From Dinochytrium kinnereticum (lineage: Eukaryota; Chytridiomycota; Chytridiomycetes; Chytridiales; Chytridiaceae), in NCBI GenBank assembly GCA_027604005.1, contig JADGJT010000111.1, forward strand, positions 12,179 through 62,116: 49,938 bases of DNA. The letters run 5' to 3'. Shown here piece by piece: positions 1 through 45,197 of this stretch. Under the pieces are notes generated by a model, which worked only from the letters and a program-made list of their open reading frames with translations, was not told the DNA's origin and made no database searches. A program made the translations under genes and the position numbers. How positions within the stretch are numbered: the first letter of the stretch is position 1; each line of letters begins with the position of its first letter.

Positions 1-3000
1 GGGGGCGCCAATCTCCCTCTACAACCATCTCGTCGTTTACCACCCCCCACCACTTCTGCAATTTCCTCTCCTCCGCCTGGAAAGCGAGAGAACGAGAGGA
101 ACCCCCCTTTCTTCCTTGACCAATCACTTTTCAAGCAGATTCCCATGAAGATATCTGCTCATATCAAAATTATGATAAAAAAAAAACAAAAAAAAAACAA
201 ACGGACGTTAACAAAGCTAACGGAAAGAAGAGAAGGAGAACCCCCACTACTCACACTTTTCTCAACGCCTTCACCTCTTTTGGCACAGTTCCCGTCAACC
301 GGTTGTTTTTGAGCGAGCTGTGATGGGAGAGAAGTTAGGGTTAAAGAAAAGGGGGGGGTGAGTCAACGTGCTGCCACCAGACCAAACAAGAATAAAAAAT
401 AAATAAAAATAAAGATAAAAAAACAGCCCAAAATAAAAATAAAGTAAACCAAACGTCCATGAAATGGTTTGGTTTCTCCGCTTCTTTTTTTTTTTCACAC
501 ATTCACCAAAAAAAAAACAACAAAGGAACCAAACTCGCTCAACAAAAACTCACAGGATTCGAAGGTGAGGAAGTTTTCCGAGATCAGGGGGGATGGGTCC
601 CGTCAACGCGTTGTTGGAGAGCTCGCTAAAGGTGGAGAGGACCAGGTTGTGTTTTTTGTTTTTGAAAAAAGGGATAGACAGACATGTGTTCGTTTTGGGT
701 TAGAAAATATTCGATGCGGGGAGGTTTTTGAGATGGTGTGAGCTTTGCAAGGAAAGGCTGGATGACTTTCTGGAGATGGAGGTTGGTTTGCTCTTTTTGG
801 GAAGGAGGTTTGGAGGTTGAAAGTGAGGAGGGATGGGGGGAATTGATACCACCAACGCCGCAAACCGCACACCAAACACCCTCTATTCCCTCAACAACAA
901 AACAAAAAAAATAATAATACAAAGTAACCGTCGTTCCCGACTCAACGGTTCGATCTAATCAAACGTGAAAAAAGAAAAGAAAAGAAAGAAATAAAACTCA
1001 CATCTGCTCAGCACAAGTCAACCCACCAAACTTTGGCACCCTCCCCGAGAACCTATTCCCACACAAGAACAAGAACCTCAACTCCCTCAACTCCCCAACC
1101 CCATCACCGATACCTCCCTCAAGTTGGTTCTCGCTCAAGTTCCTGTTTGCGCGTTAGTGATGAGAACAAGAGATGGAAGGAGAGAAACGGAAAGAAACCA
1201 AAAAATAAAAAATAAAAAAAAAATTAACGGGAGATAAAAAAGAGTTGCTTTGATTACAGGTAGGCTAGATTAGTCAAATGATTGATGGTTTTCGGAATCT
1301 CTCCAGTGAGTTTGTTGCATTCCATTGATCTACAGTCAGCCAGCGTGTCAGCTTAGGGGTACGTGGGCGGGAAGATAACTCACAGGTATTGTAGATTTTG
1401 AATGGTTGTAAGGGAATCAGGGATAAGTCCCTCCAAAGCGTTTCCGTCCATGCTCCTATTTTTCAAATAATAAAAAAAAGAACCATTTGTTTAGTTGCCT
1501 TTTTTTGGCTGTTCATTTTCGGATGGCTGTTGATTTTGAGAGGACGCGCTGGGGAAAACTTACAGGTATTGGAGGTTGGTTAACCCCTCTATTCTTTTTG
1601 GGATTTCGCCGGTGAGTTTGTTGTTGGAGATGTTTCTGATGCGACACAGGAAGGAAGGAATGGGTAAGGAAAAAGGCTCGGTCATTAATAATAATTAAAA
1701 AAAAAAATTTAAAAAAAAATAAGGAATTGGAAGAAGAACCGAAAGAATCTCAGTCAAGGATAACGAAGCAACCAACCAAGCAAAAAGGAATCGAAATAAT
1801 TTGAATCAAAGATGCTTTCGAAAGAAAGAAAAAAAGTAACAACAAAGAGCAAGAACTGAAATCTGGAGAATGGTTCACTTACAGGTATTTCAAAAATCTC
1901 AACACCCCAATCTCTTCCGGTAAATTCCCACTCAGAGCATTATCCTCCAAATGTCTAAACCCCCATTCGATCAAGAAAGAAAGAAAGAAGAAGAAGAAAA
2001 AAAAGAGTCAACAGAACCCCACAACACAAAACAAAAACAAAAATAAAAAAAAGCAAACTACACAACGTACAAAACTTCAAGCGATTCAAGCTGGCCAATC
2101 TCTTCAGGAATGTCTCCAGAGATTTTGTTTCCATTCAATCGTCTGGTGTATGAAGATATTTGATTAATGAAGCTACCGTTATTAACTTTCTTTGACGGAG
2201 GTTGGGACTAGGAGGAGAGGAGAGGGACTTACAGCTCTACTAGTCTTGATAGGCGACCAATATCAGAGGAAATGGACCCTGTGAGTTTGTTGTCGCTTAA
2301 CTTCCTGTTGAATGAAGATGTGGAAAGAAAGTTAGTTGCATTTAGTTTAGTTATTTTTAAGTTATTTTTTTTCGGGGGGGGGGAAGGGCGGGGGAGGGGG
2401 TTTAGAGGTTGAGGTGTGTGTATTTTTTTGTTATGAAGTTAAAAACAAGATCGTTTATGTTCGATCGAAATGGAATAAATGCTAACTTACAGAAACACTA
2501 GCCCTGAAAGACGGAAAAGGCTGTCTGGGATCGACCCCTTCAACCCGTTTTTCGATAAATCGCTGAGGGAAAGAGAAAAGTGAAACCAATCGTCAGCAGT
2601 CGCCAGTATTGAAAGCAAAATAGATAGATTCCCGAAATCCTGAGTGACAAAACGCAGAAAGGAAAGGAAAAACAGACGTGTGGGGGAGAGCAAACCCACA
2701 TGTAAGTCAAGTACTTTAACTTTGAGAGCCCTCTCGGAATCTTCTCAAAAGGCGTCTCCTCGTACATGGTCCTATATTCACATACCAAAAATAAAATAAA
2801 CAAATGATTAAAAAAAAAAGAAACAAAACCCCTCAGTTCACTCAGAGCGTTGATAAACATGAAACACGGGAAAGAAACTAAACTCACAGCTCTGATATTC
2901 TCCCATCCCCATTCACGCCAACGCAGTACACCTCCTCCTCTGTTTTTTCGAATATCGCAACTCGGGGCTTAATGGGACCCGATGTGGTGAAATTTTCGGG

Positions 3001-5197
3001 GGTAATGCCGTATCGGGTGGACCATGAGCTGAAGACTGCGGCGAAGTTTTTAAAGTCTGAGCAAGTTGGGGTTTGTTAGTGATGCGAGACTAGAAGACGG
3101 GGGAGAGCAGGGTTACCTTTTCCACGGCCTTGAAGCAGGAAAGAAGGAGAAGGAGGGAGGTAAGGTTCACATTATTACAAACAGAATGACAAGTTAATCA
3201 AGGCAGTAGTGCAGCGCAAGGATACAAAAAAGGATACAAAAAAGAGAAGCGAAAAAAAAGAAGTTATAATGGTCGTACCTTTTCCTTTGCTTCCCACAGT
3301 CGATGCAGACGAAACAACAGATCTCCTATCATACTCCTCAGGCTCCGGCTCCGGCTCTACCTCCTCTTCCTCTCGCCTCACAGCCTCCAAAAATGCCTTC
3401 AAAGGAGGAGCAGCCTCTATCAAAGCCCTCACAGTCTTCGGGTCATCCGATACCGGCAAAACCCCAGAATGAACGTACCTGACCAGGGTCTCATTCGCAC
3501 GATGATTCCCCTTTAAGATGGGATCGAGGAGCAGCTCAGTGGCTTTACTGCCATCTGCTTCTGTTCCAATGCCTTTGGCGTAGCAGGTGGCGAGATTAAG
3601 AAACGCCGAAGGTTCACCGCTAGAGACGGCGCTTGTGAAGCAGTTGAAAGCAGCTTTTGGATTTTGAGGTGTCCCAGTACCGGTTTGGTAGCAGACGCCT
3701 AGGTTGCTTAAGGCGACGGCGTTGCCTTGATCTGCGGACTTTTTGTAAAGTTTGAAAGCGATCTCGGGGTCACGTTCGACTCCCAACCCCCTTTCATAAC
3801 AGTAGGCCAAGGTGTTTTGTGCGAGAACGTTTCCGCGGACGGCAGAGTTTCCGTATAGTGCGACGGCTTTTGCTTCATTTTTCTCTACGCCGATTCCGTT
3901 TAGGTAGCAATCTCCAAGGAGGTTTTGTGCTTTGGGGTTGTTGGCTGATGCTGATTTCGTTAGGATGGTGACGGCTGCTTGTGGGTCTTTCTCTACACCG
4001 AAACCGTGGAGATACGCGATTCCAACGTTGAGCTCAGCGGAGGGGTCACCATTCTCAGAGGCAGTCTTAAAGTACTCGAAAGCCTTAGTGGGGTTCTTGT
4101 CAACACCTATCCCATTTTTGTAGCATCTCCCAAGATTTGTGATGGCCTTGACATTTCCAAAGTCAACGGCCATCTGATAGTACCTGAAGGCCTGCTCATA
4201 GTCGCAGTCAACCCCGATACCCTTCTCGTAGCAATACGCAAGATTGTTCATCGCGCCAGAATCGCCGAGAAGAACGGATTGCTTGTAGAGATCGGTGGCC
4301 GCTTTAAGGTCTTTCTTGACTCCAAACCCCTTTTCAAGACAGTAACCAAGGCATGTCATGGCTTTCGAGATACCCTTTTCAGAACCGATGCGGAGGCCCA
4401 TGATGATTCGCTTGATATCTTTCCCGGCCGACCCAAACGAAGCGAGGAACGCAGCGTACTCATAGGAGTTTGGCGCAGAGTTCTCTGGCTCTGGTTTCTT
4501 GCCATCCGGGGGAACCTTGATGGCCTCCTCTTCTCCTTCCACAGTGTCTCCATGATCTTCTTGAGAAGCCCTCTCCTCCTCCTCTTTCGCCTTTCGGGAT
4601 TCCTCCTCTGCAGCTTGCACTTCGGCCATCTTTGCTTTGATTTGACGAATCAACCCTTTCATGCGTGCTTCCCATACTGGACCAGAGAGAGACTTTACGT
4701 CAGACAGGTCAATGTAGAGAGTTCCTGCAGTGATGAGCCTGGACCATGTAAGAGGTCCCTTGTCAAGACGAACTGGGACAAGTGGTTTTTTCTCCTCGTC
4801 CGCAAAGTTCAGCTCCTTCTTGCAGTTATGTGAGGCCTGCAGGAGTGGGTGGCAAAGTGTTTGGTGGAGGGAGTTAACCAAAGCCGTTTGTTTATGATTT
4901 GGTTTACCTCGTATTTGACTGAGAGACATGGAACAATGATGGTGGAGTTCATGACGCCAGAAAACATTGAGTCGTTGATGTTTCCGTCCATCATATCCAG
5001 GTCCATCCACACCTTGAGCCCAGCCGCCTCCATTGACGCCTTCATCGCAATGGCATGATCCTGATGGCCCCATCTAGCAAAGACAATGCATCAAAAGTGT
5101 GAGTGAATCCAAGCACCATCTCTCTCATTTCATCAAACCGTGTAGAGGGTACTACTCACTGGTAGCTTATCATCACATCCGTCTTCTCGTCGGCCAT
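1..5197 (-). CDS. TIR-Sel1-LRR multidomain protein (partial, runs off left edge)
   Basis: No established name recognised. Translation starts at 5197, with an in-frame TAG just upstream. Exons read 5160-5197, 4908-5073, 3279-4836, 3117-3128, 2888-3056, then a run of short LRR exons down to 1-76, about 956 residues in the window. Residues 1-115 are a TIR domain: VMISYQWG, then VWMDLDMM, then CLSVKYE, then NCKKEL, whose Glu76 aligns with the catalytic Glu of NADase TIRs. An acidic coiled stretch (140-190) precedes about eight Sel1 repeats (225-510; motif YCYEKGIGV). An EPEPE-rich linker leads to an LRR cap with a Trp and a Cys, then about twelve 24-residue LRRs of the LxxNxLxGxIP type. No signal peptide or membrane segment is seen, so the protein is probably cytosolic. 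TIRs act as signalling adaptors or NAD-cleaving enzymes; Sel1 and LRR units bind proteins. The role is inferred to be sensing or signalling. The C-terminus is outside the window. Confidence 0.85.
257..2771 (-). repeat. Array of one-LRR-per-exon cassettes (72-nt, phase 2)
   Basis: Predicted exons at 2700-2771, 2491-2562, 2233-2304, 2071-2142, 1883-1954, 1564-1635, 1384-1455, 1258-1329 and 554-625 are each exactly 72 nt. Each begins and ends in phase 2 and encodes one 24-residue LRR, for example DLSKNGLKGSIPDSL and NISNNKLTGEIPKRI. Exon 1002-1142 (141 nt) carries almost two repeats, and 257-317 is a truncated last one. Every exon is flanked by AG/GTRAG-like signals, and the introns are A/T-rich and of unequal length. 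This is the coding repeat part of the TIR-Sel1-LRR gene, not a separate gene. The regularity points to growth by exon duplication. Confidence 0.85.
3117..3128 (-). other. 12-nt microexon joining Sel1 and LRR parts
   Basis: After the donor at 3278 (GGAAAAG/gtacg) the reading frame is in phase 1. A long pyrimidine tract followed by cttcaag leads to GCCGTGGAAAAG and a second donor, gtaacc. Twelve bases preserve phase 1 into the LRR-cap exon at 3056, adding the short basic link GRGK. Skipping it would also keep frame because 12 is a multiple of 3, so inclusion could be optional. Confidence 0.6.
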
Positions 5198-5586: not shown

Positions 5587-7549
5587 ATGAGCCGTTCGAT
5601 CGCCTCGCTATCGGCGGCTGTCGCCCTCTCGTCGCTCCAGGTGGCCTTCGCATCAATCCCGCTGCTCGCATGCCTTCCCCCTAAAGTGCTCATCCAGAGG
5701 TTGGGAGCCTGGGGAGCCACTGGCGTCGGGATGGTGGGCACAGAGCTTACGTCGATCTTCTTGATGGTGCACGCCGTGTCTCAGTACCTTGCATGGAGGG
5801 TCGGAGGAACTGGTTGGTATTGTTGCATTTGAGTTCTTTGAAAGCCATGGTTGAGATGAGGGTGGTTAAGGATTCCGCACCGCATGTTGACCGATCTTTT
5901 TGTTCTCCTTCAATGTCTTCCAGCGCTCATACCTTGGATCATATACCGACCTCTTACTCTCGCCGTCATACTCTCAAACTCTCTTGTCTTCTTATACGCC
6001 TCGACTGCCACTCGAAAGATCTGCGAGGATGCTGTCAACAGTTTCCGCGAACAGCTCTTTGACAAGATTGATAGGAATGGTCTTCATGTCGAAGAGCACA
6101 TTAGATCGCCTACACCATTCTCGTAAGGCAGTTTTCTTATTCATCTAGAGGAATTCGATATCTGATACCCTTTTTTTCAGGCTCTCGTTCTTTATTCAAT
6201 CGTTCATTCCGTTTTGGAAGCCTTGGAATGTGACTGAAATCAATGATAGTAAGTCTCACTTCCCTACCTTCTGATGGAATTGGTTGGAACACTAACCGCT
6301 TCCAGTCACCTACGTTACCCCGGAGGAACTTGTAGATATTGGGAAGTCTAATGAGCACTTTGTCCAGCTGGACGTCATAAGGAAGGATACGGGATACCGG
6401 AATCGCCCTGTTTTCGTAAGTATATTCTTTTGCTAAAATAAATGGTTCCGCATCTTTCAGCCTCACAATCTTACCGTCTATAACCGGCAGATGTACATTC
6501 ACGGTGGTGCATGGCAGTTTGGTGATAAGAGAAAGCCGCCGATGGGCTTGACGATGCCTATCTGTTGGCACATGGCCTCTTCTCAGAACTGGGTGGTCGT
6601 GAACGTGAACTACGTAAGGGTCCTTTCCAACTCTCGTCCCCTACTTAGTCTAAGACCGGCTGACCTCTTAAAATAGCGCATGGCTCCCAAGGCTTGCCTG
6701 GCAGACATGGTTGAAGATCTGGAAAAGGCTTTACGTTGGATTAAACAAAACGCCGCTATTCATGGCGGCGACCCCAACTACATTGTCGTAAGTGGAGGAT
6801 CTGCAGGGGGACATCTTTCTGCGGCTGTCGCCCTTAGGAACTCGGATGATGTCAAGGGCTACGTTGGGTTCTATCCTGTAACGAATCCGTTAAACAAGGG
6901 AGTGAAGGGTTTTAGTAACTGGTTTGAGACGAACCTGATTAGGGGGAAGAACTTGGGCGGTGTCCCATCGGAGCTTTGGGCGGATCCCTTGGTAATGGTT
7001 CAGGGTCGAACGGATGAGGAGAAGGCCGGGATTCCTCCCATGATTATTATTCAGTACGTTTCACCTTACGGGGATCCCAGCTCCCCATTTCTGTCATTCA
7101 CTAACAAGTAATTCACCTTAATTTTTTTTCCAATCTTACTTTAGCGGGGTATGATACACTTTTTACTTCTTTGCATTCCTCTCGTCAACTAACTCGGCCT
7201 TTAAAAAATCGCCCACTTTTATTTCTTTTCAGACCCATGACACCCTTGTGACTGTCGACACAGTCCGAACCTTTGTCAAGCAAGTTCAGAAAGGTGAATT
7301 GAATATCTCAACCTCCACTGTTGAAGGTTTATTGCAGACCGTGCCTTCATTTGTCTCCATTAAGTTAACATTTTTGCTCCACCTCTTTGTCGAACGGCAG
7401 ATAAAATCCCCACTGCATACATCGAGCTGCCTTATGCGCATCATGGGTTAGACGTTTTTTGGTCGCCTCGAAGCATCTATGCTTGCTGGGGTGTGGGGGC
7501 AATGCTTGACAGCCTACATGACCAGTCTTTTGCGAAGAAGCTCCAATAG
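5587..7549 (+). CDS. Membrane-anchored alpha/beta-hydrolase, HSL/Abhydrolase_3 type esterase
   Basis: A carboxylester or lipid ester hydrolase is predicted; the substrate is unknown. Nine exons keep frame: 5587-5812, 5924-6122, 6181-6248, 6306-6415, 6491-6613, 6677-7053, 7145-7148, 7233-7326 and 7401-7549, giving 449 residues. Residues 1-150 hold hydrophobic segments (PWIIYRPLTLAVILSNSLVFL), implying a membrane anchor. The oxyanion-hole motif HGGAW is at 205-209. The nucleophile elbow GGSAGG has Ser284, the acid is Asp372 in HGTHDTLV, and the base is His414 or His415 in AHHGLD, so the triad is complete. The VNYRMAP block and GGDP before the elbow are typical of the prenylcysteine-methylesterase/HSL branch. 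The donor of exon 1 (gttggt) is weak and could be misplaced. The gene is divergent from the TIR gene and convergent with the BRI3-like gene. Confidence 0.85.
7145..7148 (+). other. 4-nt microexon inside the hydrolase catalytic-Asp motif
   Basis: Upstream coding ends ...ATT ATT CA before gtacgt at 7054, and the next large exon starts ACC CAT GAC at 7233. Direct joining would break the frame and lose the conserved His-Gly of the HGTHD motif. A tag/CGGG/gtatga unit at 7145-7148 restores CAC GGG exactly and puts catalytic Asp372 in frame. It has canonical AG and GT flanks. Confidence 0.7.
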
Positions 7550-8418: not shown

Positions 8419-11400
8419 TCATGGCACAGAAAAAAACCGAGGATCCTCCTTCTGGGTCGTCGCGGTCGATTCAAAGCGCCTATCTGATGACATGTTTCGT
8501 TCAGAGTAGAGGGATGGATTACTCAAAAACTCATCCTCCCCTTCAACATCCTGTTCGCTCTCAAGTCGATCCAGGTAGTTTGTGCGAGCCATTGCGAGCT
8601 GGACAGAACTCGGGATTTCAGGGATTAGCCATTGTAGGATGGCCGTGATGGAGTAAACAGCGTAGTGAAACAATATGATAAATCCAACTCTCACGGCCAT
8701 ACGGGACCCGACAGTTGGAAGCGGAGCCAAGAAAGCCGAATAGAATGCGGCGGATGTGAAAGCAATCTGAACAGAGTTCGTTGCGACGGACATGCGAGCT
8801 GTGAATCGCAGAATAGCCTCCCAGGATCCGATATCCTGAGCTCTCACGGGTATAGGTCGCTGGTTCATTATCAAGACCTTATAAGCGTCGGCACGGATCT
8901 CGTAAGTATTGTTAAGGAGGGCGAAGAAAGGCGCCAGCGGGTTGATACTGACAAACATTGCCACGAACCCAAACTGTACAACCTTTTGGGCGTACTCGTC
9001 CCGAACGCCAGTATATTCGGGTAGTTTGTCATCCCGATAGTATTGAGGAAGCCTGCTGGGTCGATCATCGAGGGCTGCACAACTGTCATTGCCCATAGTC
9101 GCACCTCCCGCAACGCTTTCAACGACCATCGCGGCCATGTTTTTAAGGCTGGTACCAAAAAGAAATGAGCCGCCGCTGCTTGTCTCCTTAGGTTTGGCGC
9201 GTTGCTGCAATGAAGGCCGCCCAGTGACCTCCAAATCACCTAAAGTCGATACCGAAAGTGCCATGGGCTTTGGTTCCGGAGATTGATCAAATGCTTTCTC
9301 TTCCGTAACCGATGCGGCGACGGCTCGTTTCCGTTGGCGCTTCTCAGCGTTCCTTATACGGTTTTTTATGCCTGCTTTAAGTTTAGCGAAACTCGCTGCA
9401 ATCCATGGGATGCAGATTTCCTGAAACCGATCCACAACTATTGCCACCAGGATTAGCACAGAAAAAACTTTTTTTTTTACCTTGACCACCAATAAAGAGC
9501 ACAAAAAGATTGATAGTAAATCCACTTGCACAGGTTGATCCGTTCTCTCCTTGAGGAACTATAAAACAGCTATCGTTTAGGTACTTCAGACCAAAAAGAT
9601 TTTGGCTAAGAAAAGCCGGCTTTACGATCGAATAGTACACTGGCTACGAATTATATAATAGTTGTACATGATTAAAAATCGACTAATCCACAATTGAGAC
9701 ACTTTACCTGTGAATAACTGTTTGCAAAGTCGAATATATAGGTTTTCAGGATAAAGGAGTCGTCGTATGTCGTGTCAGTCGGGCTTCAGAGACAGAACAG
9801 TAAAAGAGGGATTTTAGAAGCTATTTCCTCAACTTGTATAACTTACTAATTTTCCCAAGAATTAAGCATCTTCACAACTATACTAAATGGAACTTGCATG
9901 ATAATGATTGATGCCAGCCCTGGGGTGGAGAAAAAGAGGTAAAATTGTCAATATCATGAATAACTAAATCAGAGAAGATACACCCTGGAAGCAAACAAGA
10001 ATATTGCTCGAAACGAAACTATCATTTACCAAGAAATGAAGTAAAGCAGGCGATCCAAATATCATCATTTACAGAGGGAGAAACGTAGGCACCAAGAGAT
10101 ATTTGCAAAGATATAAAGACAGCCATAATCGCAACCCATATGCAAATGATAATGGAGGATACGACTTGGCGGCCATGTCTCTTAAGAGGGGGAAAGTAAA
10201 GCTCATTCTTGCCGGTGACTTCACTTCGCCTGTAGTCGAAGACGTAAAGGGTTAGCTTAAGAAGAGATATTTAAGTGGAATTGAAAGTACCTTGTCCCAG
10301 TCGGTTTGAATTCGGGCCGCTTTGACTCTTCCTTTTCGAAATCATGTGTAGACCATTTCCATGACAGGTAGTTGGCTTGCCGGTTCCAGACCGAAGGCAT
10401 AAGCATAGCCCACAATGAATTAAAGATGCCATACCACGGAGTCAACGTGTTGTCGAAGAGAACGGCCCAGCGAAACGACGCCCCTCTATACAACGTGTTA
10501 GAAAAGAATCCCTGGAAAGATTCCAACCTCCTAGCCTCTCCTAAACCGTAAAAACAAACAAAAAGCCCTGCAACGACTGCCCAAACCAGCCACAAATTGT
10601 AAAAACCGTTAAATGCAAAGTAGAGGGCGACCTTCTCTCCAAAGTATGCAGAGATTTTGTCAAGCGGTTGGTAGGAAAAGTATCTCTGGGCCCACTCGCG
10701 TTTCAGATCAAGACGAAGGTTATCAGTTGATCCAAGGTCGTCAAGGTCATCATGAAGATGAAACATAGCTGTGTAAATTCCCTCCGAGAGCAAGTATCTA
10801 ACACCTGGATTCAGAACGACGTTATGACTTTCATAACGGTGTGTTGAAATAAACCTTCTTTTCGAACTTTAGCTCCTACTGTCTTGACGGGTATTTCAAC
10901 ACTTGCAATCATTCGAAATGCCTATTTTCTGTAAGCCACCTTATGCCTAAACCACTCTTACCAGAAGTGACCGATGACTATCTCTAAAAAAATTCGTTTG
11001 AATATGGCGAGGGCTATACGCATTCGAATCTCCACCCTCAAAATTCTGAAGCTTATTCCGATTGAAAATAGCAGCTTGCATGTCTAATCTCAGGTCATCT
11101 TCAAAGACCGGCTTCAAATAAGACCAAATAAAAGAGAGAACAGGATGCTTCTTTTCGATTGAGGACCGTGATTGTGAAGTTACTTTCTGGATTTTATTGA
11201 GGTACGCCTAATAATGTAAGTCAAATGCACAAACTTACTCAAACCTCACCTCATCAATCTTTAGTGGCATCTTCAACTTCATCAATTGGGCCTCCGTGCA
11301 AAGGACATGAAATGGGCATAGAATCTTAACAAAAACTTCCGATGCATCCTCAAAAGAAGTTTCTCTTTCGACAAGAAGTCCTTTTTTCAGCAATTTCCCC

Positions 11401-12507: not shown

Positions 12508-15473
12508 ATGCCGCAGGCAAGTTTCTCCTTCCAGAGAATTATCAAAACTAATGCTGCTTGGCGTATAAACGTAACTCAGAGCAAGGAGCTTTCAAATAAC
12601 CTCCTCCATGCTGTAAGGCACATTCTCGACGATGAGAGGAAGAGCCTAAATTTTACAACATCTCACCTTGTCGCGGACCTACAGTATAACTTGCTGGACA
12701 GCTTCAGCCTTTCCTTCAATCGAAGATCATCCGAAACTGCAAGATGCAAACATACCTCTGTTGCCGCATATGATTCCTGGAAGAAAGCAGCATTGGAATC
12801 CATTTGCGAATGCTATGGACGCAAAGCGGAAGGTTTCATCTAAAGTAAATAAGCTTAAACTTACGGGATGGCAGATGTTGAGCTTTTTGGTAGTGAACTG
12901 TCGTTAGACGCCGCTGTCGATTCTTTCCGAAAAACGATGGCTAACGAGATAGCTGAGAAGCCAAGGCCCGAAATAGCGGATGAGCTAGATAGCATGCTCT
13001 CATCTATTTTATCTTCCATTCTCAATGCTTCCATGATGCATTCAGCGGCATTAAAGAGAGAACTTCGATATGATGCTCGGCTTCGACAACTTATTCGAAA
13101 AATCATCCAGAATACGATACCACTCGTGGAGGAACAATCCGGCCTGCTGGGATATTCAGAAAAAAGTCAGAGTGAGGCTTTGAAAAGCCTAAGCCTCATG
13201 CTCCACAATGTCGAGGCTACTATTGCTATCCAGCTTGTCTCGCAGGTCGAGAGTGCTGATAAGGATAAGGATGAAAGTTCTGCAGGAAAGGCAAGCGCGG
13301 CTCTTGCTGAAGCAGATAAACAACATACAGGAGATTTCGATCATCAGGTCAAGAAGTGGATGACAATAGGGCTTGCTACTGTTGGTGGCGGTGTTGTTAT
13401 AGGAGTCACCGGTGGACTGGCGGCGCCGCTAATAGGTGCTGGCATGGGGACATTTTTAGCCAGTAAGTCGTTAGGAGAAGTCTCGTTTAATGAATTTTTA
13501 GGTTTAGGGGTAACTGGAACAGCGACGATGGTTGGGATAATGGGATCCTCAGCTGGAGCCGCCGTAATCGGTACCTTATTCGGTATTACTGGTGGAGGTG
13601 TGGCGGGTACGTTATAATTTGCTGTTTTGGTATAACCTGTTTCTCAGCTTTTAAGTTCAAAAAGAGGCTACAAGGTCTAGAAGAATGTTATTTCAAAACG
13701 ATAACATCTCAAGAATCTTCCATTCACGCTATTATATGCATATCTGGATGGCTGGAATCGCTGGACGACGCTACTGAGCCTTGGCAAGCGATCTCGAGCT
13801 TCGCACCCTTTTCCGAAATGTAGGGCCTCCTGTGACTATTTTAACTCATTGACTTTCAAAAGAGATGCTATGGTATTTGATTCAGATCATCTTATTGCTC
13901 TTGGAACGTCGATTCGAGACTTTCTAGGCTCTACAGCGGCATCATATGCAACCACTGAAGTGCTAAAGCACACCATTCTCGGAGGATTGGTTCTTGCTTT
14001 AGTCTGGCCTGTTGGACTTCTTAACCTTTCATACCTCGTCGATAATCCGTGGAGTATCGGATTAGACAGGTCGCGAAAGGCTGGAGAGCTTTTGGGGAAA
14101 GAAGTGCTTCTACCTCAAATACAAGGCAAGAGACCACTTACGCTAGTAGGATGGGGGCTAGGCGCCCGGACTATTTTTTATGCTCTATTAGAGTTGGCGA
14201 TAGCTGGAGACAATGGGAACCAAAGTGTTTACGGGTTTGTACCAGCTTTCGTATTGCCCTTGCATTTTCTTATGGAATGTTTCCTCTGATTGTTTCTTGT
14301 AGCATGGTAGATTCCGTTTATCTCTTTGGCGCACCCATTGAAGGTGATCCAGAGCTCTGGACTCGAGCGACCAGTGTTGTATCTGGACGTTTCGTTAACG
14401 GCTACTCAAGTAACGATTGGTTCCTATACTTTCTTTACCGAGCCGGCTCGCCAAACGACAGAGTAGCAGGTCTTCATCCTATGGTTACCATGGCAGATGC
14501 TGGAGCCACTTCTTGGTTTGGCTGGAATAAGCCAACGACCCTACCCACTCGACAGGAGTCATGGGTTAGATCCAGGATAGAGAACTTTGAATTGTCAAGC
14601 ATTGTATCAAGTCACGCAAAGTACAAGGACGCACTTCCAGATATCCTTGAGTTCGTCGGATTTGAGCGAGTACTCCCGGCAGTTAAGAAACCAATGGCCC
14701 CCTCTGCTCCACCTATTGAATCAACCCACGATCTTGCGGGCGTAGATCCTGAAGAAAAGCGCATGCAAATTCTTCAGTTGATGCCACGTAAAAGTTCATT
14801 GGCACATACCCTTCCCACGTCGATGGTCGCGGCACCCGCCCCTAGTGTAGTGACGACATCGGTTCGTCCAAGATTGAGTAGCCGGAACATTGAAAAACAA
14901 GAATTAAGCATCAAAGAAGCAACATCAGCCCCCAATACACGGCTTGAACAAGAATCTTCTGCGTCAAACGATAAGAAGCTACTAAGTCTTGAAGTTAGTA
15001 GAGGTGGTCGTCCGATAACCCCTGAACCCCCAACTATCAAGCCTCCCCCAATCCTAGTCATAGCCGAACCAACTCCCGTCTCTATTGACACGCTTTTTGA
15101 CTCAGACATAGAGTCTGGAGAAAAAGTTATAGGCGATTTGGGAACAGATACGTCTAATTTTGAGATATTGGATGTCCTTTCACAAAACGAAGACATGGAT
15201 TTTAAAAGCCATGTCTACTCCAGCAATCTCTCTTTGTCCTCACAAGGCGTCACGCCTGGCGGCCGGAGGAAATCACCCGTCGAGGCAGTGTTTGAGCCTA
15301 ACGCATTGGCGGTGGATCCTTTATCGCGAGGGCCCTCAAGTAATTCCTTAGGGGAAGACGAGGCGGATAGGAAAGAGGCGGACTCTTGGGTAGGGGCAGG
15401 AATTGACGAGCGGGTATACCTTGGCCCTGTGGCAGAGATGGTTAAGACGCCATTGTCTTCATTGCCTCAATAG
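12508..15473 (+). CDS. TMCO4/DUF726-family alpha/beta-hydrolase-fold protein (nucleophile Ser replaced)
   Basis: Five exons (12508-12832, 12875-13606, 13648-13819, 13863-14234, 14303-15473) keep frame and give 923 residues. An N-terminal helical region is followed by the DUF726 hydrophobic signature (KKWMTIGLATVGGGV, then TGGLAAPLIGAG). The hydrolase half has SGWLES, ATEPWQAISSF, LVDNPWSIGLDRS, then GKRPLTLVGWGLGAR. Next come FGAPIEG, SGRFVNGYSSNDW and AGLHP. In relatives the elbow reads GFSLGAR; here GGA TGG GGG CTA GGC gives Gly in place of Ser, so classical serine-hydrolase catalysis is not expected. The last ~300 residues are a low-complexity Ser/Pro/Glu tail. Start codon 12508 is the first ATG of the exon and is the least certain boundary. 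Divergent from the anoctamin gene across about 245 bp. Confidence 0.85.
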
Positions 15474-29000: not shown

Positions 29001-32000
29001 AGAGGATCAATAATAATGTTAGATCCTACGAGTGAGGAATAAGGAAAGCGAAGAAATGACAGACATCATTTAGCTCCTCTTGAAGGGCAATCTGCCATTC
29101 CCCTAGCTTCAAGTAGCACCTCGCCAGCAGCTTAATAAGGTTTAACTTCCCAGGGTCGTTCTTGTTCTGCTCAACGTGGAAGTTGATATCATTCAATGTC
29201 AAGATCCCGAGCCTCTCCACAAGCGTCTTCGTAAAGTCCCTCATTTGCTTAAAGGCGTGGTCCCTTACCCCAGAAGCCCAAGTATGCTTTAAGCAAGCAT
29301 ATATGACATGCGGGGAATTATTTAGCATATCGAGAACTCCGAGATCTCGCGACTCAGTGTTTAAAAGGCTCGCAAGGGTTTTGTAGGAAAGGCCAAGGCG
29401 ACCGCTCTTCCTACAGAGGTTCGCAAACTTAATCCACATTTCTGTATCCTCCTTAGGGGAAATGACAAGGGCGCGAACACGAAGAATGCGTTGCCAGACT
29501 TCCACGTTCCTTTGACATCCTTTCAACCTAAGCACAAAAAAATTCAATAAGTGCTTGCCATAGGCTTGGGTCAGCAGTGAATGAAACAAACCTGGCCATC
29601 CAAGTCTTTCTAATTAAAGCCAGACGTTCCGGGTTATCAAGGCTCTGTTTGTAACTGATAATCTCCTCAAGCTCTACCAGCATCTGAATGCGAACAACCA
29701 CACTGAAAAAAAACCGTCAGAATGATTCGCACTTCGAATAACGTACGCATAGGCTCTGTTATAACTTTCACCAACCAAAGCCATAAGCTCCGTATCCAGA
29801 AGCTCTCTTGTCTTCTCGATATGGGCTGCAGATTGTGGGAATAGGTCTTTATGGAGAGTTAAGATCGCCCTGCAAAAAATTTGAAACCACCGATCATTAG
29901 GCTGCAAAACCATCTTTAAATAAAGATTACCTAAAGAAGGCGCTGTCCGGAGAATCCGGCTTCATCATATTGATGTAGTCGTTCATTATACCCCACTGTC
30001 CAAGACCCCACGCCGCACCAGCCGCTAGCGGTGCAATAGCCCTCTTAACGTCGTCCTTTGCAAGAGGCCACCTTTCTTGCGCTAGTTGAGATAAAGCCTC
30101 CCACTCGCCCAAGTTATGCAAACATCTCATACGACCAAGAGTTGCCTCAACAGAGTTAGGATCCTCCAACTGTTTTCTCTCATAAGCGGCAAGACCATCC
30201 TCCCACCTCTGAAGTTTTTCATACCAGGTCGAGATCAACTCTACCTCCTGAGTCTGTTGAGCATAGGTGAGGATACCGATGGCAGAATCAGGTTGCTGCA
30301 GCTGGTTGTTGATACTGATCAACGCCTCAATGGTCTGTGGTAGAGGCTCGGCAATAAATTCGAGCTCCTTATAATGAAGCGCCTTAGCATAGGCATGGCA
30401 TTTTGCCGCGTAAGATCCCAGGAGCCGGATATCAATAGGAAGCGCCTTGTCATCGTGCTCCATAAATTCCGCAAGATTCAACAAGGTCTGTAGAATCTCT
30501 GGTGAGATGTAATGCGACATAAGCGCAATCTCCAAAGATCTGACAAGTTCATCCTGGAACTGATCGTACAGTTCACCCCAGCAAGAAACAAACCCAGCGT
30601 TGAAGAGCTCCCGAGCCAAGGGGTAGTAGACACTAGCGAGACTGGCGCAGGCTCGCAGAGCGTGGGAAGGAGATTCCTTGAGAAGCTCAACGCTGAAGCG
30701 TCGGATCCACTCCGCCCAATCATCTTTAGTAGATCGTTGTGAGGCCTCCCAGGCTTTCTTCAGTTGCTGCTGATTGACAGGGAGCTTTTTAGCAGCTGTC
30801 TCGCTCAAGCTCTCTTCGGCAGTCATATTGTCAGCCCTGAAAGAGAATTGATCAGTCTTCGAATAGCCTAAGAAAAAAATGGCGAATAACTAACCTCTCA
30901 TCCGATTCACCAGAATCTTTTGGCAACGGTTCACCCTTCATCAACTTTGATATTAAAGCATCATATTTAGCATATTGAATATGATGTCTTGCTAGGGCCT
31001 ATAATACTTATTTAGAAAACACCGCAACCACATATTGTAGTCCACACCTTGTTTATCATCGGAACGAATACTATAAAATCCGACCCAAGCTGATACATCA
31101 GCGCACACAAAGTCTCTAGGGCAGTACTTCTCAGATCCGCCTGCCCACCTCCCAAAATCCTGACAAGAGGGTGGATAATCCTAGAAGATTGGTCCGCAAA
31201 CGCAATCTTCCCACATAGCTGTCCAGTAACCTGAATAGCTTGTCTCCTCAGGCTACTAGGAACATCCTGCTTCTCGAACAATCTCACAATGAAAGGAATA
31301 ATGAGGTGAAGATATTCCTCGAGGTTGGACCCAAAGATCAGCATGGCATGAAGTACCTTCTGGGTCGGTTGCCGGCGGTCGCTGGTATCGGCTTCGAAGA
31401 TTTGGAGCATTTGTGGGAGGAGCGTTGGAAGGTAAACCTTAAACTCGCCGTCCAAAGCCATAGCAATAGCTTCGACTAGAGAAAGGATAGTGATCTGAAT
31501 ATTTGAGTTGGGGCTCCAAAAGTCTTGGATTAGGGAAAATATCTCTGGCAAGTAGTTTCGGATATGCTGTTTTACAATCGAGACAAGAAGTCCCAATTGC
31601 TGGAAATGAAATTCGAGCATTCCAGGAGGACACGCCCGCATCATGCTAAGGAAAGGAGGCATGATCTGAAGAAAAAGGTTTGAAATACTTTTAGGAAAAG
31701 AAAATCATTGGCGTCTTACCCTAGGCAAAAACGGCACACACTTCAATCCCAACGTTTTAAAAATGTACATGACAGCTTGGATAACAGCTGTGTGATGAAC
31801 GCTAAGAGAAGTATCCCGCAAAATCTTCATCAAAGCATTAATGGCGACTAGGGAAATGGTTAAAAAAAACATACATTTCTGGAAAAAAGAATATACCTGT
31901 CGGATAATACTCCTCAGACGATGGACTTAATCCTAAAGGCATAGTGTTCAGCTCATTCCGAGATCCTCCTTGCTGCGCGTCCGGATCTGAGAGCTAAAAG

Positions 32001-40559: not shown

Positions 40560-41331
40560 CGTGAAAAGAGACTGGGGACCGTGGAACAAGGCCGACAAGG
40601 CGACGAGTATTGCATTATTCGGCCACTCGCATCAATATAAATGTCAATAAACAAATAATAAATAATAATGATAATGTATACATACAAAAAAAATCAGTTG
40701 TTTCTTGTTGAACATATCTACGCGTTTTCGTGCAGCAAGACGCGTAGATGGGTGCTTGAACAGCAGCTGCTTCTTTTTCATCCACCTAAAAAAAAACGAG
40801 AAAACAACATGCACTCAACTTGGCCAGCATCAATGACAACAATGGATCCAATCAATCATCAAAAGAGAATCAATTGGGTCGAACTGTGGCAGCGTGCGGC
40901 TCGTGTGGTATTAAACAACAATGCTGGCACCGCTCTGGCTCCCCTACCTGCAGCGTTTATACTGTAAACAGAGCCAGAAAGAGAGCAATTGAACGCTGCC
41001 TGGTTGGGGAGTTCGAACAATGAGTGTCACGAGCGAAAAGAATATGGGTCGTCTTCTTCCACTTCCACTATTCTTTCTCAGAAGCAAAGAGGCTATTCAG
41101 AACCCATACTGATGCTGCTGCTGAAGTGATCAAAGGAGATAAATAATAAAAGTAGGTCATCGTCGTGAACAGCATCATCATTCATAACCAAAGATTAAAA
41201 GAGTTTAATTCCTTTACAGCAACGAGTGTTTTGGACATTTAGAATATTTGGAGGAAGCAACGCAGCAAAACCATCTGAAGGAGCCTTTCATTATTTTGGA
41301 AACCTTGCCTTTTCAGCAACGCGGTCAGCCC
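40560..41331. other. Intergenic region upstream of RasGEF gene
   Basis: A possible splice acceptor (tttacag) ends at 41219, and the RasGEF frame is open from there to 41332, so an upstream 5' exon may exist. Short plus-strand frames at 40668-41023 show no recognised domain. The left part may still be decayed retrotransposon sequence. Confidence 0.4.
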
Positions 41332-44300
41332 ATGTCAACCATCATAGCATCAGCCATGCCGGAACGACAGGGAATCGACGAAAGCGCGACAACTCTCACC
41401 ACGTCCACAATCACTCCACCAACATCCACCTCCCCATCCATCGTCAAGCAAATCAGCAGAAGCAACAGCATCGGCTCGTTCACCAGCGCTTCCAGCCTCA
41501 CCATACAAGCTGGGCCCTGCACCCCACTTCAGCTGCTCCAAAAAAAGGTGTCCATGGGAATCATCATAGGTGGGAACACCGTCTCGCGACAGCAATCGTT
41601 TTCTGTGCCTGACTTGAAAGCGGAAGACTCGCCCTCAAACCTTCCGGGGGCTCCAGGAACGGTCAGCTTTCTTTCACCTGGCCAGCCCCTCAAACCTCAT
41701 AACGACCACATTCAACGCAGCGATTCTGAAAAATTAGGCGAAGGACATCAAGAACGAGGAAAACCAGTCCTTGAGTCCAAGATCAGCGCAGAATTCCTCC
41801 AAGAAACCTTAGACTCCGTTGCGGATCTACTTCGCCCATCCACGAGGGGTGGTGGCGGCGCAATAGGGTCAGGGAGGGACTTGTTTTTCCGTCCAGCAAG
41901 TTTTCAGCTTGACCCCTCGCTGAAGCCCACCGATGTAGGGCTTTCAGCAACCTCCTTCTCAGAGCTCACAACCTCATCGTATAACGACGAGACCATGAAG
42001 CCAGCGGAGGAAACTGGCACATCGTCAAGATCCGAACTCCCCATCATCCCAGTATCAAAACGAGAAGGATTTATGGAGAATTCACATTCTTCCGGCCACC
42101 CCCGAAGTATCAGCGCCACTCTGAACCGTCTCGAATCAAACCTCAGTGGTTCAGACATCCTTAGTACATCCATAAGCAGCAGTTTCGCACCTACTTCAGG
42201 AAACCTTTCATCTCATCTCGCGACAGCGATGAGCAATGACGACTATGAAGAAGAAGAGGCTGCGTCAGCTTCTTATCGACCAGGAGCCTCATCCGGAAAG
42301 CACATCCATCACCGTCAAGAATCCCTCTCGCATCTCTCTACGGTCATAAGTCCAGGTACAGCCACCGTAATCTCCCTCTCCTCTCTAAGCGACCGTAAAG
42401 CCGGAGACCGCATGAGCACCTTTAGCACGGTGAGCAGCTGCAGCACGAACACGCGCAACTCCCTGAACCTCGACAAAGACTTCGATATGCTTGGCGGATC
42501 CATTCGGCCGCGAACAGCCAGCCTAAGTTCAAACAGTTCTTTGCGAACAGGCGTTGATCTCGTCGGCGTCAAGATTGCATGCAACGATACGATTAGAACT
42601 GTCTCACCTTCTTTAGAAGGGACTTACCCTCCAGAAATCGAAGACCGACCTCAGCATTCCTCCCACGCTGCAGTTCAAAGTTGCCCCTCCGCTGCAACAT
42701 GGAGATCAGTAGGATCTCTCTCCGACAACCAACCAGCCGGCACAACCGTTCCAGGAATCACCGGCCGCTCCCAGCAAACACCAAGACACGCAGCCCCGAC
42801 CCCTCCACCAGCCCACGTTAGAAGACAATCCGAAGGTGGTGTCCTTCCCTCTCCAGGTTCCTCAAGTCCGTTTGGAGGGAAAGCAATCCCACTGACAGCC
42901 GCCGCGTCGTCCCCGAATTTCGCGATCTCTTCTGTCAACGGGTCGACGTCGAGTTTGATTTCCAGTACAATGGGGTCGCTGCCTCACATCGAGTTACCGC
43001 AACGACCGAGATTGGGGCCGTTTTACCTGACGCAAGAGAGGTACAACTCTGTTCAATCATCTATGGATTCAGAGCTGTTTGCCCATTTTGGTTTCGCCGT
43101 TGGGCCGCGACCAACACAGAAAGATTTTGCACCACCCTCAGTCACCACAGCTCCACTGACGCAAATAGGAGGAGGCGATGGACCAGGTATGACCGTCGGT
43201 CGGCCAGACCTCCCAGTGCTCATGGAAGACTCAGAGGGGCGAAATGTGATTCGTGGAGGAACATTACCAACCCTCGTAAACCTTTTGTCAGCTCAAGGCG
43301 TGTCAACCGACGCTGATTTCATGATGGATTTCCTAAAAACCTACCGTTACTTTGCTGACGCATTGGACGTTGCGCGGCTTCTCATGCTTCGGTACATTGA
43401 GATAGGTTGGTTAATGGAAGGCTCTTCCACATCCGCATCGTCTTCAGCATCAGGACTAGAAAAAGATCACTCGGACAAAAAAGGAATATCAGCATGGTAC
43501 AGCAAGTCAACGTCATCGTCCACAGCATCGAGTAGGGGTAATATTTCCGCAACCGTTACAACAACCGGTAAAGAAATCGACGGATTCCTCCAGCTTCGAG
43601 TCCTCAACGTCTTCAAAAAATGGATTGAAGGTCATCCAGACGACTTTTCGCGAAACCCGCAGCTCCATGATCTCTCTCGACTCTTTCTGGACCGTCACGT
43701 AAAGTTGGACCCAAAACGAATCTTATTCGTCGCGAGTATTCTCAAGAATCTTGAAGAGCGTGCACCACTCATCCAAAGTCCCGCCGCATCAACCGTTTAT
43801 GGAAGATCCTCCTATCTCCCCTCAAAACTTAACATGGTGAGCACAGCTTCCTCTACTTCTATGATGCATACCTCATCAAGTCAAGCCCAAAGTCCTTTGC
43901 GAAGTCGAACAGCTTCGGAGGCATCTTCTATAGCCGTCCCACCTCAGTCTACTCCATTGACTGTCAGAAAGAGTGGAACGATCGGATCAACAGGATCTCT
44001 TTCAGATCACCGCCCGAGGTCTGGTACGATCATCACATCAGGTGACGAAGACGACACAAGTGGCGGACAGTCAGTGGGAATTGGTGGACTCAACCTCCGT
44101 CGTGGGTCAAGAACTTCAGCGCCCTCATCCATCTCCCTCAGTCTCGCTTTATCAATGCTTGAACCCCCGAAAATGTCAATGTCAGATCTCGATCCAACCC
44201 TTGTGGCCCAGCAACTGACTCTGATCGAGCACAATCAGTTCCGTCGAATCCGGATTGAAGAGTTTTACTGTCAAGCTTGGAACAATCAACCCGCCCCCTC

Positions 44301-45197
44301 CGCCAGTCACCTTCGACCAAAATCACGGTTAGGATCGTTAATTGCTTGGTTTAACCGAGTTGCATACGGTGTTGCAAGTGAGGTTGTTATGGCGGCGAAA
44401 GTGAAGGATCGCGTTGGGGTTTTGAAGAGGTTTATTTTTATTGCACATCTGTGTTTGAAGTGGAATAATTTTAATACTGTATTTGAGATTGTTGCGGGAC
44501 TAAATCTAGGGGCTATAACGAGGTTGAAGAAGACTGTAAGTTTTGATCATAATGCTTTAAAACTTTCTACATTATTTGTAATGTTTAGAATATTGATGTC
44601 CTATTTATTTTTCATATAGTGGAAAGCACTTCCTTCAAAATACTGGGATGTATGGAACACTTTAAACAGAACTGTATCCGATGAAGGTACACATCCCCGC
44701 CCTGCGCAGCCTCCTTATTTTCTCTTCAATTTACCGTCAACACTTCTACGTACCATTTATGTTCCCAAAGCCGATATGCTAACCCCTCAACCTACCGATT
44801 CCTCTTCGCAGGCTCTTATCGTGTCTACCGCCACCACATATCAGCCCTCAAAGACCGCAAACCCGAATCCCCTCTCCTTCCTTACCTCGGCGTGAACCTC
44901 AAAGACCTAACCTTTGCTGAGGATGGCAATCCCACCCACCTCTCTCTCGCGGAAGTCGCAACTACCTTAAGGATGCCACAACAATCCGTCTCAGACGAAA
45001 AAGTAATCAACTTTACGAAATTCCGCATGATCTCCAAATTGTTGGACTCAATTGTGGCTACTCAGAAGGGGTTATATGATTTTAAGGCAGATGAGAAGGT
45101 TCAAATGTGGTTGAAGGAGGATTGGGTTTGTTTGGAGACTGCAGAGCTGTATGAGCAGTCGAAGATTTGCGAACCAAGGGTACCAGTTTCGACTTGA
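41332..45197 (+). CDS. Ras-type guanine nucleotide exchange factor (RasGEF, CDC25 homology)
   Basis: It catalyses GDP/GTP exchange on a Ras-family GTPase. Three exons (41332-44535, 44620-44686, 44812-45197) give 1218 residues from the first good ATG; the frame is open upstream to 41219. The N-terminal ~600 residues are Ser/Thr/Pro-rich and probably disordered, with many potential phosphosites. The RasGEF N-terminal (REM) module runs from VIRGGTLPTLVNLLS through DFMMDFLKTYRYF to FKKWIEGHPDDF, interrupted by a Ser-rich insert. The catalytic domain begins DPTLVAQQLTLIEHNQFRRI and has NRVAYGVASEVV. FIFIAHLCLKWNNFNTVFEI follows, then GAITRLKKTWKALPSKYW across the first intron. It ends with PYLGVNLKDLTFAEDGNP, then INFTKFRMISKLLD. 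No SH3 or DH domain is visible. Which Ras it serves is unknown. Confidence 0.9.

Follow-up and report, generated by a model that had tools for sequence, protein, structure and literature searches.

We analyzed a 49,938-nucleotide (nt) stretch of DNA from the chytrid fungus Dinochytrium kinnereticum (the window; C111, contig JADGJT010000111.1, positions 12179-62116, in a 22.4-Mb assembly of 558 contigs) and found near its left end a predicted minus-strand gene that joins a TIR domain, a Sel1 repeat array and a leucine-rich repeat (LRR) array in a single protein. As a gene model the architecture stands, and it is unusual. The most likely reading of the sequence is a cytosolic sensor that lacks a STAND module and whose output is a TIR NADase. 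We give a probability of roughly 0.55 to the plausible mechanism in which a single gene encodes a sensor whose TIR domain would cut NAD+ when its LRR arm, carried on a Sel1 scaffold, binds a target. This reading supposes that splicing proceeds as predicted, that the TIR domain is an active NADase, that the LRRs act as the sensor, that clustering is the switch, and that the outcome is defence or regulated cell death.

Gene model and domain architecture

The gene model, with splicing predicted from the sequence, runs in frame from position 5197 to position 124 through 17 exons and 16 introns, and encodes 941 residues followed by a stop codon (Table 1). All 16 introns begin with GT and end with AG, and no ambiguous base occurs in the window’s first 6,000 positions. 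An exact length of 72 nt recurs in nine exons, and all 12 LRR exons (exons 6-17) start in phase 2. Codon scores favor the model frame over the other two in 14 of the 17 exons, with the 12-nt, 63-nt and 31-nt exons as the exceptions and with narrow margins for exon 5 (0.26 versus 0.21) and exon 7 (0.16 versus 0.15). This score was trained on eight long open reading frames of the window (3,896 codons, not curated) and uses the gene’s own introns as background, so the introns do not serve as an independent control.

An earlier note on this DNA had described frame-keeping junctions leading from the TIR exons through the Sel1 exon, a microexon and an LRR cap exon into the LRRs, and all of these junctions are found in the model. 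The 12-nt microexon is present with the frame kept, but it is optional, since skipping it keeps the frame as well. The LRR array is likewise borne out, although the note’s count of at least ten LRR exons now becomes 12 LRR-coding exons plus the cap exon. The suggestion that the gene continues to the left of the window probably does not hold: in the window DNA, an in-frame TGA at 126-124 closes the predicted frame.

A Pfam search with residues 1-587 identified TIR_2 at residues 8-114 (E 4.3e-18; 66.4 bits against a cut-off of 28) and Sel1 in seven stretches (E 6.3e-70; 229.6 bits against a cut-off of 30.7). The best solved relatives of exon 3 are Sel1 repeat proteins (6ok3, E 8.1e-71). We place the Sel1 span at about residues 207-520, based on PDB matches (whose listed stretches include residues 207-475) and on the helices in a predicted structure of P0002, a Chytridium lagenaria relative discussed below. 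That prediction shows a clear Sel1 solenoid but models the TIR domain poorly (block means between 24 and 42 for residues 41-110), and it was not used for the TIR domain.

In residues 586-941, Pfam finds LRR_1 (E 1.7e-39) as well as LRR_14, LRR_8 and LRR_4. The repeats are tandem, 24 residues long, and follow the pattern LxxLxLxxNxLxGxIP, which we take to be the plant-like 24-residue GxIP class. The best solved relatives of this region are plant LRR receptor kinases. Among the 120 matches listed of 6713 in a protein search with the LRR region, none has TIR or Sel1 in its Pfam column; these matches are generic LRR proteins, and the named ones are mostly from plants and bacteria.

The domain search of the full protein thus returns TIR_2, Sel1 and LRR_1, and no nucleotide-binding domain: neither NB-ARC, NACHT nor another switch domain is found in residues 1-587 (E 1e-3) or 586-941 (E 0.1). 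There is also no transmembrane-like segment, the best 19-residue mean hydropathy being 1.14, below the threshold of 1.6. With a TIR domain that begins at residue 8, an N-terminus that is not hydrophobic and every 19-residue stretch below 1.6, the protein is likely cytosolic. Domains, splice model and hydropathy therefore support the earlier note’s picture of a single, likely cytosolic TIR, Sel1 and LRR gene product without a recognisable nucleotide-binding switch.

Table 1. Features of the predicted TIR–Sel1–LRR gene (window positions).
Feature	Position	Strand	Remarks
Predicted gene	124..5197	-	TIR – acidic linker – Sel1 repeats – LRR N-cap – LRRs; 17 exons
Exons 1-5	5197-5160, 5073-4908, 4836-3279, 3128-3117 (12 nt), 3056-2888	-	splice model
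Exons 6-11	2771-2700, 2562-2491, 2304-2233, 2142-2071, 1954-1883, 1635-1564	-	splice model
Exons 12-17	1455-1384, 1329-1258, 1142-1002, 625-554, 317-255, 154-124	-	splice model
TIR domain (to residue 114)	4699..5197	-	exons 5197-5160 and 5073-4908, first part of 4836-3279
Introns 1 (5159-5074) and 2 (4907-4837), exon 2 between	4837..5159	-	position and phase common to the C16 paralogue; exon 2 is 166 nt in both
Exon 3 (1558 nt)	3279..4836	-	end of TIR, acidic linker, Sel1 array, acidic tail
Intron 3 (150 nt), at the Sel1/LRR join	3129..3278	-	if retained, in-frame stop after 34 codons (3177-3175)
Predicted 12-nt microexon (exon 4)	3117..3128	-	optional; direct joining of exon 3 to exon 5 also keeps the frame
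Exon 5, LRR N-cap (residues 592-648)	2888..3056	-	lacks a Met in the model frame; motif YCVGVNGDGRISELTM spans the junction of exons 5 and 6
LRR array (exons 6-17)	124..2771	-	mostly 24-residue GxIP-type repeats

The TIR domain and the proposed mechanism

We compared a profile of six TIR sequences with solved structures, and found Cat1 (E 1.8e-6) and SARM1 (E 1.4e-5) as its best solved relatives, followed by Roq1, the Toll-like receptor (TLR) entry 7ylf, RPS4 and RPP1. Cat1 and SARM1 rank above animal TLR TIRs in this search, which returned 52 sequences to E 1, the weakest of them including non-TIR proteins. The six-row profile is stronger than a single-sequence PDB search with the TIR domain, which returned only 3h16 (E 0.65). 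Glu76, which lies within an SxxCxxE motif, is invariant in all six aligned TIRs (the window protein’s own row included) and is aligned with a glutamate of Cat1 and of SARM1 that we take to be their catalytic residue. The profile entry for SARM1 names an NAD+ hydrolase, and Cat1 is an NADase. These alignments make Glu76 a putative catalytic residue. A PADLOC search with residues 1-587 gave no match.

In the proposed mechanism, the target bound by the LRR arm would be a ligand or a guarded protein, spacing or partner binding would fall to the Sel1 array, and the TIR domains, once clustered, would cut NAD+, leading to defence or regulated cell death. Clustering, and not nucleotide exchange, would be the switch. 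Clustering is the mechanism of TIRs in general, and as the protein has no nucleotide-binding switch, it is the simplest mechanism here. The terms “ligand-binding” and “sensor”, which the earlier note applied to this protein, are in this respect interpretations of its domains.

The TIR domain could instead serve as a docking adaptor without NADase activity; the protein would then be a scaffold bringing in other TIR proteins of the genome, for example the ones that carry NACHT-type and WD40 domains. The genome encodes several TIR paralogues as possible partners, and Sel1 repeats are commonly scaffolds; but the putative catalytic glutamate shared by all six TIRs, and the ranking of animal TLR TIRs below Cat1 and the NAD+ hydrolase SARM1, both speak for an enzyme, and we regard an adaptor role as unlikely.

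The join between the Sel1 and LRR halves

We consider it likely that the TIR–Sel1 and LRR halves form one gene. The cap exon (exon 5) contains no in-frame methionine, and a single ATG, at 3172, occurs between 3278 and 3057, with a stop codon directly behind it. Joining exon 5 to exon 6 rebuilds an LRR N-cap motif, YCVGVNGDGRISELTM, which assigns the cap to the LRRs and calls for a preceding exon of the right phase. With a cap exon that lacks a start, no usable ATG upstream, and a junction that rebuilds the cap motif, the LRR half is hard to read as a separate gene. The strict form of the motif, [WYFH]xGV…GR(V/I/L)xxLx(L/I/M/V), occurs in 59 of the 120 listed LRR homologues. The window gene has a cysteine in place of the aromatic first residue, and a form of the motif relaxed at this position after the cysteine had been seen was matched by none of 200,000 shuffles of the 84-residue segment.

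Several observations weigh against a single gene of this kind. The donors at 3278 and 3116 score -1.2 and -0.4, whereas the other 14 donors score 2.7 to 13.4, and the acceptors at the join score 4.2 and 2.0 versus 4.5 to 9.8 elsewhere. The matrix behind these scores was built from the gene’s other 14 introns and, by our reading, is dominated by LRR exon ends; a donor similar to that of the join (GAG before GTACCA) is used at the second TIR intron of a paralogue on contig C16. Further points, on both sides, come from protein relatives. A search with the full protein (7,997 candidates scored, 908 hits, 120 listed) has among its listed matches two TIR–Sel1 proteins of C. lagenaria, P0002 (BC829DRAFT_181199) and P0011 (BC829DRAFT_416679), and P0059 of Irineochytrium annulatum, which combines Sel1 and LRRs within one predicted protein and so counts in favor of the single gene; both species belong to the Chytridiales. 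P0002 and P0011 have no LRRs in their Pfam columns, and the homology with P0002, which starts at residue 1, tapers off around residue 575, shortly before exon 3 ends. The cap has no significant match to P0059, P0002 or P0011. Finally, the earlier note had proposed looking for the same architecture in other chytrids, and a TIR-only database search (four hits of 157 candidates: P0002, P0011, P0121 and P0122) contains no second TIR–Sel1–LRR protein.

A homologous cap in P0059, P0002 or P0011 had been tempting by eye. We rejected it, as BLAST finds no match to the P0059 segment and shuffled caps reach the observed scores: out of 500 shuffles, 318 do so for whole P0059, 405 for the tail of P0011, and 140 each for the P0059 linker and the tail of P0002.

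These points are shared in part by a reading with two adjacent genes, in which a TIR–Sel1 gene ends near 3175 and a separate LRR gene follows. The LRR-free C. lagenaria homologues, the frame of exon 3 that stays open up to the stop near 3175, the weak splice-site scores at the join, and an ATG at 2860 that runs into exon 6 with a hydrophobic start are all in its favor. Yet it leaves the LRR cap exon without an in-frame Met or a usable ATG upstream, and a start at 2860 would lose the cap motif. All three frames of the intron containing 2860 have negative scores (with the gene’s introns as background), and hydrophobic stretches with a mean of at least 1.6 occur in 19 of the gene’s 48 intron frames. 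The C. lagenaria models, moreover, seem flawed: about ten residues next to the site of TIR intron 2 are missing from P0011, and its model may be faulty for this reason. A first gene ending near 3175 with a separate start for the LRRs is, on these grounds, improbable. As candidates for such a start, both 2860 and 2767 were rejected, as they drop the cap exon and the N-cap motif.

Very improbable is a decaying or unexpressed fusion, produced for instance by recent shuffling of LRR exons behind a TIR–Sel1 gene: a second genome copy was not seen among the best candidates, which were the only ones scored, and an LRR-bearing orthologue was not found, but the 941 codons in 17 exons contain no stop or frame break, the coding-frame preference includes 10 of the 12 LRR exons among its 14 of 17, and the LRR array is not a fresh duplication because its 72-nt repeats differ (mean DNA identity 0.44 over ten repeats).

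Intron 3 also raises the matter of isoforms. If it is retained (3278-3175, minus strand), the product is a TIR–Sel1 protein with a hydrophobic 34-residue tail and a stop. The read-through frame has a hydropathy of 2.16, a value reached by ten other intron frames of the 48. The hydrophobic tail probably follows from the introns being rich in T, with a mean of 1.6 reached in 19 of 48 frames, though a tail-anchored isoform may arise by this route. A second frame-keeping donor at 3182 scores 3.2 on the gene’s own matrix, above the donor at 3278 (-1.2), and its use may give a membrane form with a hydrophobic insert between Sel1 and LRRs. As a candidate we set this form aside, given that its mean of 2.16 is common to 11 of the 48 intron frames, itself included.

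Relatives, precedents and other TIR loci

Over 97% of residues 1-150, the TIR domain is 61% identical to that of P0002 and 59% identical to that of P0011. P0002 also matches the linker and Sel1 array, whereas the deposited models of both proteins lack LRRs and P0002 has another C-terminal tail; it appears to share the TIR–Sel1 body and to have a tail that differs or is unannotated. Of the other two proteins in the TIR-only search, P0121 from Nowakowskiella sp. carries TIR_2, NPHP3_N, NACHT and WD40 in precomputed Pfam annotation, with a TIR 49% identical to that of the window gene, and P0122 carries TIR_2 and PF08477. Five further proteins (P0073, P0003, P0013, P0044 and P0063) combine TIR with long Sel1 arrays and have no LRR among their Pfam matches; Sel1 precedes TIR in four of the five, by best stretch. 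By the same measure, P0003, P0013, P0044 and P0063 all show the order Sel1–TIR–STAND-type NTPase, with the STAND match above cut-off in P0003 and P0044.

The D. kinnereticum genome itself contains further TIR genes. A TIR_2 profile search of the contigs found five places, the window gene included, and a protein search added loci on C74 and C434, giving six other TIR-like loci. The C16 locus (L037) combines TIR, NPHP3_N and WD40, with NACHT itself below cut-off, and its TIR is 45% identical to that of the window gene. On C74 (L038), the end of a TIR with 43% identity to the window TIR by tblastn, and with TIR_2 below cut-off, is found with NPHP3_N. C434 (L045) has a TIR-like end and WD40; a P-loop is visible by eye, and the 25 Pfam matches shown, out of 46, do not include its NTPase family. 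On C28 (L039), a separate frame with TIR_2 above cut-off lies ahead of NPHP3_N and WD40. The remaining two are a TIR exon that adjoins a 592-codon ankyrin exon on C40 (L040:2457-4776) and a TIR-like frame with an acidic insertion on C156 (L041:4290-5447). By sequence, the genome is predicted to hold a set of TIR-type STAND-like receptors (C16, C28, C74 and C434). The earlier note’s statement that TIRs are rare in fungi therefore needs a limit, as four of the six additional loci lie beside NACHT-type and/or WD40 domains and TIR is reported in NLRs of Chytridiomycota (PMC9815663; sources with PMC numbers are cited here and below from excerpts).

We assembled paralogue frames for the C16 TIR exons and for the first two C74 TIR exons. 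Both TIR introns of C16 share the position and phase of those in the window gene. In C74, the first TIR intron has the same place and phase, and exon 2 also ends in phase 0. The chytrid TIR–NACHT-type–WD40 proteins (C16 and P0121) are related to the window gene by their TIR, and differ in bearing NPHP3_N/NACHT and WD40 where the window gene bears Sel1 and LRRs. We tentatively propose, at somewhat less than even odds, that exon shuffling in a chytrid lineage placed TIR exons of the kind used in its TIR–NACHT-type–WD40 genes in front of a Sel1–LRR body, and so would have made a STAND-free, clustering-switched, NAD+-destroying cytosolic Toll-like sensor. The shared TIR introns would then exemplify exon shuffling from one receptor type to another in a single genome.

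By the features tested, the window gene is neither a TLR nor an NLR. Animal TLRs likewise have LRRs and TIR in one protein, and ligand-driven clustering would be alike; their LRRs are N-terminal and their TIR C-terminal, however, whereas the window protein has the reverse order, with a Sel1 array and GxIP-type LRRs, and lacks the transmembrane helix that TLRs have between LRR and TIR. Plant TNLs share the N-terminal TIR and C-terminal LRRs, but have NB-ARC, while the window protein has neither NB-ARC nor NACHT and carries Sel1 repeats in the place of the switch. SARM1 and Cat1, the best profile matches of the TIR, have other partner domains, which in SARM1 are ARM and SAM. The KfNLRs of Klebsormidium are similar in that a single immune-type gene encodes both Sel1-like repeats and LRR motifs, but are green-algal, based on a nucleotide-binding (NB) domain, and homologous to the TIR-NB region of plant R proteins (PMC7145615).

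The window gene is a TIR-based receptor variant with known partial precedents. In titles and abstracts of the open-licence literature we found no description of a TIR–Sel1–LRR combination, in agreement with the earlier note, which knew of no family with this order; TIR-LRR proteins reported in bacteria (PMC7145615) and the algal NB–Sel1–LRR genes are partial precedents. The excerpts of PMC7075850 and PMC13142454 do not mention Sel1 in TIR proteins. Fungal NLRs are described as lacking LRRs (Dyrka et al.; PMC4986451), and extracellular LRR receptors are seemingly not harboured by fungi (PMC9119436). Five fungal LRR receptors are listed in PMC2939053, where one species is the chytrid Batrachochytrium dendrobatidis, with four LRR-kinase genes and without TIR. 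If our reading is true, early-branching fungi assembled a TIR–LRR sensor without a nucleotide-binding switch, and fungi would own a STAND-free TIR–LRR receptor in a kingdom thought to be almost devoid of LRR immune receptors. Through the TIR–Sel1–LRR gene, fungal microbe sensing becomes a testable question.

Other LRR frames occur in the genome. On C165 (L046:2361-3362, minus strand), GxIP-type LRRs are followed by a Ser-rich stretch and then by a hydrophobic segment, VGIAVGVALFSVMSYVVYACVFL, and the frame resembles a membrane LRR receptor-like protein; further LRR frames lie on C469, C313 and C179. Within the window, five neighboring frames at 6677-7111, 8422-9558, 12859-15470, 29930-30889 and 41209-44616 (alpha/beta hydrolase, anoctamin, DUF726, FAT-domain edge and RasGEF) are ordinary and have no visible link to the TIR gene.

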